In this document: piece by piece, positions 2,297-4,441 of the stretch
How positions within the stretch are numbered: the stretch's first letter is position 1
How the letters are laid out: each line of letters begins with the position of its first letter
NCBI GenBank assembly: GCA_028293625.1
Contig: JAQGOL010000035.1
Coordinates: 434,001 to 498,000 of the forward strand
DNA: 64,000 nt
DNA from: Chthoniobacteraceae bacterium
GTDB taxonomy: Bacteria; Verrucomicrobiota; Verrucomicrobiia; Chthoniobacterales; Chthoniobacteraceae
Direction: 5' to 3'
Notes under the pieces: model-generated
Told to the model about the DNA's origin: nothing
The model's database searches: none
Seen by the model: the letters and a program-made list of their open reading frames with translations, nothing else
Translations under genes and position numbers: made by a program

Positions 2297-2600
2297 GGGG
2301 TGAAAAAAAGTATGACGAAACGAGTTCGCTTGGACAAGAAGTGATGCGGCTCTGCAACGCTCTTTCACATTCCGCTCAATCCGGCTTCGCTCATTCCCGT
2401 TTCAGGCGCTGAGTTAAAGCGAATTAGCTTCGGGACATTGCCGGAATAAATTTCAACGACAGCGCCTGCCTGGTAAGTAACAAGGCCCGTAACCCTAGGC
2501 GGATAAAATTGTCAGACAATCCAGTCGGGTGCGGGCCTATTTGAGCGGTTGCATTCCCAAAGGTTGCATCCCGGCGCGAGGCTGTTACCGTGGCCACCTC
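2297..2600. other. Intergenic region between divergent GH63 gene and leu leader
   Basis: About 300 bases separate the GH63 start from the putative leucine leader ORF. It must hold the promoters of both divergent genes, but I could not assign a confident -35/-10 pair. The short frames it contains on the minus strand show no recognisable protein features. Confidence 0.5.
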
Positions 2601-2687
2601 ATGCGTCACTTGCTGACCAGCCGACTACCGTTGCTCCTCGGGCCTTCCGAGCGCGCCATTGTGCGTGCCGCCCTGGGAGCTTTCTAA
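2601..2687 (+). CDS. Putative leucine leader peptide of leuA (28 aa)
   Basis: An ATG at 2601 opens a 28-codon frame ending TAA at 2685-2687, in a different frame from leuA, 83 bases before the leuA start. The peptide begins MRHLLTSRLPLLLG. Seven of its 28 codons are leucine, six of them within the first 13 (TTG CTG, CTA, then TTG CTC CTC), using four different leucine codons. Leu-rich short ORFs directly before leuA are the hallmark of ribosome-mediated attenuation in other phyla. The leucine codons overlap or follow one arm of an inverted repeat (2617-2626). A GAGG lies about 20 bases upstream, which is too far to be a good Shine-Dalgarno site, so translation is inferred. A chance ORF cannot be excluded. 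Confidence 0.6.
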   Translation: MRHLLTSRLPLLLGPSERAIVRAALGAF

Positions 2688-2731
2688 TTCAGTCGGCTGG
2701 CGCTGTTCCCGGTGGAGGCGGCTGCCCAGCC
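2617..2731 (+). promoter_or_regulatory. Putative leuA attenuator: mutually exclusive RNA pairings
   Basis: CCAGCCGACT at 2617-2626, inside the leader peptide, is perfectly complementary to AGTCGGCTGG at 2691-2700, just after the leader stop codon. Part of that second arm (GGCTGG, 2695-2700) can instead pair with CCAGCC at 2726-2731, so the two helices exclude each other. A ribosome stalled on the leucine codons at 2625-2639 would cover the first arm and free the second. A small hairpin CTCGG/CCGAG (2637-2651) also lies inside. There is no U-tract after the last helix, so the output may be translational or Rho-dependent rather than intrinsic termination. The pairings are seen in the sequence; the mechanism is inferred. 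Confidence 0.5.
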
Positions 2732-2770
2732 ATTCAATTCCGCAGTTCCGCCGTATACCCATCTTTTGTC

Positions 2771-4441
2771 ATGATTTCTGATCCCAGCAGCAAGTATCGT
2801 CCGTTTCCCCCGATCCATTTGCCTGACCGTCAATGGCCCGGCCGCACGCTGAGCAAGGCGCCAATTTGGTGCAGTGTTGATCTGCGCGATGGCAACCAGG
2901 CGCTGGCCGTGCCGATGAATGTTTCGCAAAAACTCGAGCTTTTTGAAGAGTTGGTGCGATGCGGCTTTAAACAGATCGAAGTCGGTTTTCCGGCCGCTTC
3001 AAACACCGAGTTTGAGTTCATGCGCCGCCTGATTGAAAGCGGCCGGATTCCTGACGATGTGACCATTCAAGTGCTCGTGCAGGCGCGAGAGGATTTGATT
3101 GAGCGCACCGTCGAATCGTTGATCGGCGCCAAAAGCGCCATCATCCATCTCTACAACTCCACTTCGCCAGCCCAGCGCCGGGTCGTTTTCGGACTCGAAA
3201 AATCCGATATCGTAAAGATGGCGGTGCGCGGCACCCAATGGATCAAGGATCGCTTGCCGCGTCTGGTCGGCACCGATGTCGGATTCGAATATTCGCCCGA
3301 AAGCTTCTCGGCCACTGAAATTGAGTTTTCTTTGGAAATCTGCGAGGCCGTTGTCGATGTCTGGGGACCGACCCCGGAGCGTCCGATTATTTTGAATCTC
3401 CCCGACACGGTCGAAGTGGCAATGCCGAATGTTTATGCCGATCAGATTGAATGGTTCTGCCGCAACTTGCGCCGGCGCGATTGTGCGATCATCAGTCTGC
3501 ACACTCACAACGACCGCGGCACCGGCGTCGCAGCCACTGAGCTTGGGTTGCTGGCCGGCGCGCAACGCGTCGAAGGGACTCTCTTTGGGAATGGCGAACG
3601 GACCGGGAACCTCGATGTGGTGACGGTGGCGCTCAATCTCTATATGCACGGCATTGCGCCCGGACTCGATTTTTCCAACCTGAACGCCGTGGAGGAAATC
3701 TATGAGCGTTGCACGGGCATGACGATTCCAGCCCGGCAACCGTATGCGGGCGAGCTGGTCTTTACCGCCTTTAGCGGCTCGCACCAGGATGCAATTAAAA
3801 AGGGACTGGCTGAAGTGGAAAGCGGCGTGGGCAACCACTGGGATGTGCCGTATCTGACCATCGATCCGGCCGATCTGGGACGCAAGTATCGCGAGGTGAT
3901 CCGGGTTAACAGCCAGTCGGGCAAAGGCGGTGTCGCTTATCTGTTGGAGAGCGAGTTCGGCATTGAATTGCCCAAAGAGATGCAGCGCGAGTTCGGACCG
4001 CTGGCTAACGATGAAGTCGACCGGCTCGGACGCGAGGTAACCGCTTCTGAATTAAGAACAATCTTCTGGCGCGAATACATCGAGCGCACGGAACCGTGGT
4101 CGCTGGAAGGAATCGACACGGTTGTCCAGCACGGCGTCAGCAGCTGCCACGCGCGCATTTACGATGCCGAGGAGGCGCGCGAGTATCCGCTTGAAGGGGT
4201 GGGCAACGGGCCGATAGCCGCCTTTGTCCATGCAATGAATACGATGGCGGCGGTGCCGAAGTTCGAGGTTGGCTATTACAGCGAACACGCCATGGCCAGC
4301 GGCGCGGAAGCGAGCGCCATCGCCTATATTCAAATCAAACTCGCTGACGGACGCTCAAAATGGGGGGCTGGAATCGATACTAATATCGAGCTCGCTTCCA
4401 TCAAGGCCGTGCTTAGCGCCGTCAATCGCTCCCTGGTTTGA
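2771..4441 (+). CDS. leuA: 2-isopropylmalate synthase
   Basis: LeuA condenses acetyl-CoA with 2-oxoisovalerate, the first committed step of leucine synthesis. The 556-residue product matches the long LeuA class (about 550-600 aa, as in actinobacteria): N-terminal KYRPFPPIHLPDRQWP, the substrate motif DLRDGNQAL (about residues 37-45), the metal-binding HTHNDRG (His244 and His246), and a C-terminal allosteric domain from about residue 430. I chose ATG 2771 because the conserved N-terminus begins there; the frame stays open upstream to about 2549 but that part is unconserved. No clear ribosome-binding site precedes it. It stands alone, followed by a terminator-like hairpin, and the leucine-rich leader upstream suggests control by leucine supply. 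Confidence 0.95.
   Translation: MISDPSSKYRPFPPIHLPDRQWPGRTLSKAPIWCSVDLRDGNQALAVPMNVSQKLELFEELVRCGFKQIEVGFPAASNTEFEFMRRLIESGRIPDDVTIQVLVQAREDLIERTVESLIGAKSAIIHLYNSTSPAQRRVVFGLEKSDIVKMAVRGTQWIKDRLPRLVGTDVGFEYSPESFSATEIEFSLEICEAVVDVWGPTPERPIILNLPDTVEVAMPNVYADQIEWFCRNLRRRDCAIISLHTHNDRGTGVAATELGLLAGAQRVEGTLFGNGERTGNLDVVTVALNLYMHGIAPGLDFSNLNAVEEIYERCTGMTIPARQPYAGELVFTAFSGSHQDAIKKGLAEVESGVGNHWDVPYLTIDPADLGRKYREVIRVNSQSGKGGVAYLLESEFGIELPKEMQREFGPLANDEVDRLGREVTASELRTIFWREYIERTEPWSLEGIDTVVQHGVSSCHARIYDAEEAREYPLEGVGNGPIAAFVHAMNTMAAVPKFEVGYYSEHAMASGAEASAIAYIQIKLADGRSKWGAGIDTNIELASIKAVLSAVNRSLV

Follow-up and report, generated by a model that had tools for sequence, protein, structure and literature searches.

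Does the DNA upstream of leuA in a verrucomicrobial genome carry a leucine-sensing switch and, if so, at which step would it act? The locus lies in a stretch of 64,000 nt (the window) from Chthoniobacteraceae bacterium (assembly GCA_028293625.1, contig JAQGOL010000035.1, positions 434,001-498,000, forward strand); positions below are counted within this window. The initial annotation had pointed to a leucine-rich short ORF before leuA and to exchangeable hairpins around it. We conclude that the region is very probably a leucine-responsive leader-peptide attenuator of leuA. The ORF, its fixed start, the promoter pattern, the pairings and the tie to leuA were all computed, and the following features are involved.

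2564-2569, forward strand: -35 box, TTGCAT.
2586-2591, forward strand: -10 box, TACCGT, with a spacer of 16; its end lies 9 nt upstream of the uORF start.
2601-2687, forward strand: leader ORF (uORF), MRHLLTSRLPLLLGPSERAIVRAALGAF and stop; ATG at 2601, 28 codons, stop codon at 2685-2687; probably leaderless.
2617-2626, forward strand: strand 1, the 5' arm of hairpin A, inside the uORF, pairing with 2691-2700.
2633-2680, forward strand: inner helix of hairpin A, 2633-2638 with 2675-2680, variable at the tip (covariation).
2691-2700, forward strand: strand 2, forming the 3' arm of hairpin A and beginning hairpin B on its 5' side (direct reading, folds).
2695-2731, forward strand: hairpin B (2:3), including 2695-2700 with 2726-2731 (folds, swap tests).
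2711-2759, forward strand: hairpin C (3:4), pairing 2711-2714 with 2756-2759, 2717-2721 with 2748-2752 and 2722-2725 with 2742-2745.
2771-4441, forward strand: leuA, 2-isopropylmalate synthase of the TIGR00970 (leuA_yeast) type, 719.1 bits against a cut-off of 697.4.

Direct reading of the window bore out the 28-codon ORF with seven Leu codons, at positions 4, 5, 9, 11, 12, 13 and 25, six of which fall within codons 4-13. The proposed 10-bp complement is also exact, 2617-2626 (CCAGCCGACT) matching 2691-2700 (AGTCGGCTGG), and GGCTGG at 2695-2700 complements CCAGCC at 2726-2731 as the proposed 6-bp pairing. The three arms of the earlier scheme are therefore real, but that scheme left out a fourth strand beside the leuA start. 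This strand 4 (2742-2759) can pair with strand 3, which gives a scheme of 1:2 plus 3:4 versus 2:3. Hairpin C has an alternative register (2710-2717 with 2746-2753), and its end lies 11 or 17 nt before leuA.

Within the window, at least six Leu among the first 13 residues were found in 1 of 529 ATG ORFs of 13-40 aa on both strands, a threshold that the uORF passes. Perfect inverted repeats of at least 10 bp, 20-120 nt apart, were present in 71 of 3000 random 200-nt stretches of the window. The fold of the whole region was ordinary when compared with dinucleotide shuffles (z -1.5; 18 of 200 shuffles equally good). Single-sequence energy alone is thus insufficient to reveal the element, which is revealed by conservation.

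To collect leuA loci, relatives were searched with the window LeuA; 120 of 147 had matches at E<=0.001, in many cases solely through a second type that is about 30% identical. Comparison of 26 upstream regions found the element in 22, with four lacking it (G003, G036, G012 and G041), and G005 was added by model search. The element thus stands before leuA in 23 of the 40 genomes of the window's family, 22 of them recognized by a covariance model (R1) and G002 by eye. R1, built from 19 sequences, gave 23 matches at E<=0.1 in 213 genomes of the order, one place each; 22 were in the family of 40, and each of these lies before a leuA by coordinates. Nineteen of the 22 are in the model by construction, while G005, G007 and G037 are outside it. 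The remaining match, G177 (E 0.09), has no leuA in its locus and was taken as chance. The element was not found in 17 of the 40 genomes, namely 12 of genus g4, G003, G009, G026, G031 and G035; the last four cannot be judged since their leuA was only in pieces or not found. Among 384 genomes of the class R1 gave 13 matches at E<=0.05, nine of them in the window's family. Matches like the four outside (E 0.005-0.03) can arise by chance when 384 genomes are searched, and the 3.2 kb around the strongest, G403, contain neither type of leuA.

The leuA behind the 23 elements is of the window type in 17 genomes and of the other type in six (G004, G005, G011, G015, G019 and G023), and the leader DNA recurs before the second type in genus g2. 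For G015 the other type was confirmed by a TIGR00973 score of 666.2 bits (cut-off 598.7) for a 460-aa piece. Two non-orthologous leuA types, about 30% identical, therefore share a common leader. No recurring branched-chain leader was seen by eye upstream of ilvB in 33 family loci (L176-L208, window genome included), so the element appears tied to leuA. The search of close relatives for a short Leu-rich ORF or covarying pairing upstream of leuA had been set beforehand as the test of the initial annotation, and it did not refute the proposal: 23 of the 40 family genomes retain the leader. The uORF, the repeats and their conservation before leuA are confirmed as a real observation beyond chance.

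An ATG or GTG lies exactly 21 nt before CGACT[TA] (codons CGA-CTT or CGA-CTA) in all 23 members while neighboring bases vary, and an in-frame stop follows 10-30 codons downstream, start and stop being present in 23 of 23. One further CGACTT in G004, farther upstream, has no start codon and is not the element. Counts of 21 refer to distinct members, G007 and G017 being near copies of G033. Leu accounts for 113 of 412 leader residues; over codons 2-13 it makes up 90 of 249 (36%) in the leader frame versus 29 of 252 (11.5%) and 10 of 252 (4%) in the other two frames. All 21 members have CGA at codon 8 and Leu at codon 9 (CTT in 20, CTA in one), and codon 12 is CTC (Leu) in 20 of 20, with the caveat that codons 9 and 12 sit in conserved RNA strands. 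Leu stands at codon 4 in 15 of 21 members and at codon 5 likewise in 15; both codons exchange CTG for TTG although they lie outside strand 1. At the peptide level S7-R8-L9-T10 is well kept. In 27 long ORFs of the window CGA encodes 5.4% of Arg and CTA 2.7% of Leu, whereas CTT, at 23% of Leu, is not rare. A conserved short ORF with several Leu codons, as in leader-peptide attenuators, is thus present.

A promoter pattern precedes this ORF at short distance. All 21 distinct members have a TTG at -46 to -30 relative to the uORF start, compared to 18% on average and 35% at most for shifted anchors, and TTG-N19-T[ATC] occurs in 20 of 21 compared to 2.8% at such anchors. The top-scoring -10 box ends 6-12 nt upstream of the start in the family, and a looser pattern with the -10 end 5-13 nt before the start fits 20 of 20 members (G005 left out). 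A generic sigma-70 scan listed no promoter at 2564-2591. In the same 20 members no Shine-Dalgarno-like 4-mer was found at -16 to -5 of the uORF. Because the conserved promoter lies only 6-12 nt upstream and no Shine-Dalgarno sequence was seen, the leader ORF of the window's family is probably leaderless. The available part of PMC10783764 places Akkermansia and another member of the Verrucomicrobia among organisms in which Shine-Dalgarno sequences are scarce. In G003 (L112), which belongs to the window's genus, the leader is absent and a TTGCAA-N16-TAGCCT promoter lies 10 nt before leuA itself. Genus g4 (L094-L104) also has no leader and, together with G003, provides a natural on/off series of the attenuator.

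The RNA strands were examined by folding, covariation and partner swapping. Of 22 members, 19 form the outer helix of hairpin A in their lowest-energy core fold; G013, G014 and G028 do not. In alignment A2, made without G002, G037, G007 and G005, standard pairing accounted for 90.1% over the 17 pairs of hairpin A. Changes on both sides were seen in 11 cells, compared to 4.6 for shuffles, none of 500 reaching the native value, and 0-3 for slid versions; further pair types were not unusual in number (248 of 500 shuffles). Hairpins B and C each fold in most members when taken alone. For 3:4, matched changes were seen by eye: GGTGGA/TCCACC (G010, G015 and G019), GGCAGAA/TTCTGCC (G005), GGGCGAA/TTCGCCC (G018) and GGCGGCGGAA/TTCCGCCGCC (G025). 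No clear 3:4 pairing was seen by eye in G001 and G002.

In swap tests, 3 to 28 of 20000 permutations matched the native partners for 2:3 and 1 to 9 of 20000 for 3:4 over four runs. With 18 members (G007, G017, G037, G028 and G023 left out; other runs had 21 and 16) the permutations as good as native numbered 149 of 20000 for 1:2, 14 for 2:3 and 9 for 3:4. Controls gave no native advantage, both for strand 3 with two stretches of leuA coding sequence and for 2:4, 1:4 and strand 4 with leuA. A supposedly neutral control, the ORF start region with strand 2, reached 231 of 20000 (z -2.36), which indicates that shared ancestry alone can yield such values; the outer 1:2 helix (z -2.58) is therefore unconvincing on the swap test. 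When partners were shuffled by dinucleotides, p was below 0.05 for 2:3 in 9 of 18 members and for 3:4 in 5 of 18, the window giving 0.03 and 0.08. Mutually exclusive structures that overlap the ORF are thus present, as in attenuators, with an equilibrium switch in only 8 of 21 members.

Translation of the uORF, ribosome stalling in it, the response to leucine and the level at which leuA output is controlled are inferred. Transcription would start at the ATG at 2601 or a few bases before it, and the uORF would be translated from this leaderless or nearly leaderless end. With ample charged tRNA-Leu the ribosome would clear the Leu codons and stop at 2685-2687, right before strand 2. Strand 2 would then be occupied by strand 1 or by the ribosome, 3:4 would form next to the leuA start and leuA expression would be low. 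When Leu-tRNA is scarce the ribosome would wait at the Leu codons at 4-13 and cover strand 1, upon which 2:3 would pair, strand 4 would be free and leuA would be expressed.

Ensemble calculations on the window RNA followed this logic. In the full free leader the predicted pairing was 0.99 for 1:2, 0.00 for 2:3 and 0.81 for 3:4 (plus 0.17 in the alternative register). When the RNA was masked as far as a ribosome holding codon 9 in its A site, 2:3 shifted to 0.78 and 3:4 to 0.05; at codon 5 the values were 0.49 and 0.25, and with the ribosome on the stop codon 0.00 and 0.78. The lowest-energy folds of the window's stalled RNA still contain 3:4, so what switches in the window is the ensemble as a whole. 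In 21 members the mean 1:2 pairing dropped from 7.2 to 0.3 bp at codon 5. The attenuation logic originally attributed to the exchangeable hairpins thus holds in silico for the window RNA, but a joint rise of 2:3 and fall of 3:4 in the stalled state was obtained at equilibrium in only 8 of the 21. In 7 of 21 members, window included, only 3-5 nt separate the leader stop codon from strand 2, and in those seven a terminating ribosome would cover strand 2. The predicted unpaired fraction of the leuA start region (2760-2773) went from 0.72 in the free leader to 0.60 at codon 9, with no clear opening, and that of 2740-2759 from 0.43 to 0.51.

The step at which hairpin C would act is the main point on which two forms of the attenuator differ. 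That it blocks initiation of leuA translation is a little more likely than that it ends transcription; the slight preference derives from the lack of a T-tract after hairpin C. The remark that the last helix has no U-tract was correct: the window positions 2400-2900 contain no terminator-like site, unlike classical trp/leu-type systems, in which the last helix is an intrinsic terminator with a U-tract. The guess of translational control made at that stage fits both the missing T-tract and the position of strand 4. The same attenuator could instead end transcription at hairpin C through a weak intrinsic or Rho-aided terminator, for which the chance, as far as this output step is concerned, is appreciable though short of even. 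T-rich stretches do follow strand 4 in some members, for instance TTTTTT in G011 and, directly behind the stem, TTTTTC in G021. In many members, however, the T-rich stretch begins several bases past the stem, and strand 4 ends about 6-29 nt before leuA across members (both by eye), which speaks against termination, as does the scan of 2400-2900. In favor of termination, cousins in other families, 31 of them aligned, have a canonical T-tract terminator before leuA.

These relatives were found by scanning leuA upstream regions for at least 5 Leu in 14 codons followed by a T-tract hairpin. With repeated upstream regions counted once, 32 of 112 distinct regions, nearly all from the class, have a Leu-rich ORF and then a strong hairpin with a T-tract, while the reverse complements of the 112 gave 0; L235, L248, L258, L261 and L269, whose leuA start was not found by BLAST, were skipped. 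The architecture consists of a leaderless Leu leader, an antiterminator, a T-tract terminator and leuA of either type. In alignment A3 (31 sequences, without L021) the leader peptide has the form MNRNLNLLLxxALLLxxAAVGF followed by a stop, with Leu as 204 of 667 residues. The promoter pattern is present in 30 of the 30 with enough sequence, compared to 5.8% (highest 21%) at shifted anchors, and Shine-Dalgarno-like 4-mers are found before 0 of 31 leaders. With regard to the test of the initial annotation, a terminator-bearing relative of the leader exists, beyond the close relatives, in other families of the class. Carriers noted are L003, L005, L006, L008 and L009, and others among L210-L245, L262 and L278-L296; L006 (Limisphaerales) and L008 (Verrucomicrobia subdivision 3) suggest the order to which the type belongs.

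In the alignment of this type (covariance model R2) pairing in the terminator reaches 93.5%, and 19 cells carry changes on both sides (0 of 500 shuffles; slid versions 2-5). The antiterminator, formed by the AAVGF-stop codons with the 5' arm of the terminator, shows 81.6% pairing, compared to no more than 51.8% in slid versions. Its covariation score of 0.196 was reached by 0 of 500 shuffles, the highest slid value being 0.110. It has 11 double-changed cells (3 of 500), although two slid versions give 16 and 11, and a mismatch affects one of the 13 pairs in 29 of 31 sequences. For the 1:2 helix pairing is 84.6%, compared to a slid maximum of 62.8%, with a score of 0.253 (3 of 500) and 10 double-changed cells (21 of 500; slid at most 12). 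As judged from the alignment, the R2 terminator is well supported by covariation, the antiterminator and 1:2 mainly by pairing percentage and score.

Searching 384 class genomes with R2 gave 211 matches at E<=0.01, many of them only terminators. At a best E<=1e-8 there were 82 genomes, or 80 after removal of G000 (rejected) and G004 (partial match), of which 26 are in the model by construction and 54 outside. The downstream gene was looked at for 26 of these 54. All 19 fetched loci lie before an ORF that begins like a type-1 LeuA (..FDTTLRDGEQ..), and the three checked with TIGR00973 were over the cut-off; in L291 and L295 the start codon differs from the model's first codon. Seven further matches adjoin a type-2 leuA by coordinates (G273, G278, G305, G309, G349, G381 and G478). 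The match in the window's own genome (L277, G000:C43:27875-28008, E 5.9e-12) was judged an ordinary terminator and rejected: there is no Leu run in its 5' part (MSTRSMCQRFAVW..), and the next long ORF starts unlike leuA. The E-value of R2 alone is thus not enough. Among 387 genomes of the phylum two reached E<=1e-8 (G218 and the rejected G000), which bounds the spread only loosely. R2 gave no match to the window's element. L003 and L005, which match R2 (9.5e-20 and 6e-21), have their start at -21 from CGACTT by eye, like the window's family, and CGA stands at codon 8 in 9 of 31 R2-type leaders. The two leader types are presumed here to be related.

Two readings other than attenuation by Leu-tRNA supply were weighed. 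The region might be a riboswitch or a protein-binding RNA in which the ORF is incidental, and the strong base conservation in CGACTTACG..GCTCC and GGAGC..TCGGCTGG could be read in this way; an actinobacterial counterpart, the LEU element, is argued to be protein-bound in the available part of PMC1262725. Such an RNA would not account for a start fixed at -21 in 23 of 23 amid variable neighbors, for Leu enrichment in the leader frame only, with synonymous Leu exchange at codons 4 and 5, or for the Leu-rich leaders of the cousins, and we regard it as very unlikely. The leader might also sense leucine through nascent-peptide arrest at TSRLT instead of through the supply of Leu-tRNA, given how well S7-R8-L9-T10 is kept. 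Codons 6-9 overlap strand 1 (ORF nt 17-26), however, so pairing explains their conservation, and the cousins retain Leu runs and not the TSRLT peptide, which makes arrest highly improbable. That a chance ORF adjoins a chance repeat, as the whole-region z of only -1.5 would allow, is next to negligible in view of the conservation and the position before leuA in 23 genomes. Reinitiation from the leader stop to leuA, 83 nt apart in the window, was dropped; reinitiation at leader genes is treated in the available part of PMC4833913.

With leader-peptide attenuation of leuA as the preferred reading, a history can be sketched tentatively, and we would not give it even odds. An old leaderless leucine attenuator in Verrucomicrobiota may have followed the function of leuA and not one leuA gene, as it stands before two non-orthologous LeuA types within the window's family and also outside it, in further families. 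It would act by termination in many families of the class and would have been rebuilt in the window's family as a translational switch, through loss of the T-tract and relocation of the last helix to the start of leuA. The usual accounts of leader-peptide attenuation concern Proteobacteria, Actinobacteria and some Firmicutes, and a family of switches in Verrucomicrobiota on probably leaderless transcripts suggests that its logic is older or has re-arisen. Loci with a terminator, with no terminator and with no leader form a natural series for the evolution of attenuator output.

That attenuation is little documented outside those phyla, as initially stated, agrees with the available part of PMC2965389, according to which leader peptide systems were in 2010 unknown outside Proteobacteria and Actinobacteria, and which adds Firmicutes; its main text makes no mention of Verrucomicrobi, Opitutus, Akkermansia or leuA. 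In the available part of PMC10272879 attenuation through uORFs is also proposed for ilvB motifs in further bacteria, among them Leptospira. In the open literature we found no published report of such an amino-acid switch in Verrucomicrobiota; Lopatovskaya 2010 and Vitreschak 2004 could hold relevant predictions. Rfam covariance models, leucine and ilv leaders included, gave only four weak unrelated matches below gathering scores on the window and ten loci. Leu-rich short ORFs were also seen upstream of leuA elsewhere. Seven Pseudomonas records (L044, L058, L063, L073, L074, L079 and L080) share an identical ORF, MKTFSTLILLRQHRSLCLVSARLPG, about -160 to -81 from leuA, with close variants in others; it is likely a Leu leader. 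Six records named as Desulfocapsaceae, Desulfobulbaceae, Spirochaetaceae, Thiotrichales and Steroidobacteraceae (L027, L049, L053, L048, L046 and L069) have such ORFs, as do L038 (Opitutales) with MTSIKQLHLLLSEKLLPLGSIR and L023 (a record named Bacteroidetes) with MQIAALSLRLTLLLPGLTGSVEAI, the scan showing no strong terminator in these last two.

The actinobacterial LEU element before leuA also combines a Leu-codon ORF with alternative RNA structures; in the available part of PMC1262725 its Leu run pairs with the leuA Shine-Dalgarno sequence and a pseudoknot is proposed. In the window, by contrast, strand 1 pairs with strand 2, and 1:4 is no better than swapped partners (z -0.18). The ilvB-II, ilvB-OMG and Leptospira ilvB motifs, as far as covered by the available part of PMC10272879, resemble the window element in a uORF rich in branched-chain residues and in the attenuation proposed for them, and differ from it in genes and lineages. 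The R2 type has in common with the window's family a leaderless Leu leader before either leuA type, and differs in its AAVGF-stop antiterminator and T-tract terminator. The ilvBNC leader of C. glutamicum, in work by Morbach from 2000, is reportedly formed without a ribosome binding site. Enterobacterial trp, leu and his attenuators have a short ORF of end-product codons and mutually exclusive 1:2, 2:3 and 3:4 strands. The window element is like these classical systems in both respects and in a stop codon just before strand 2; it differs in having no T-tract after 3:4, a leader ORF that is probably leaderless and no Rfam match. The comparison supports leader-peptide attenuation of a known kind, distinguished by a probably leaderless leader and by the absence of a terminator in the window.
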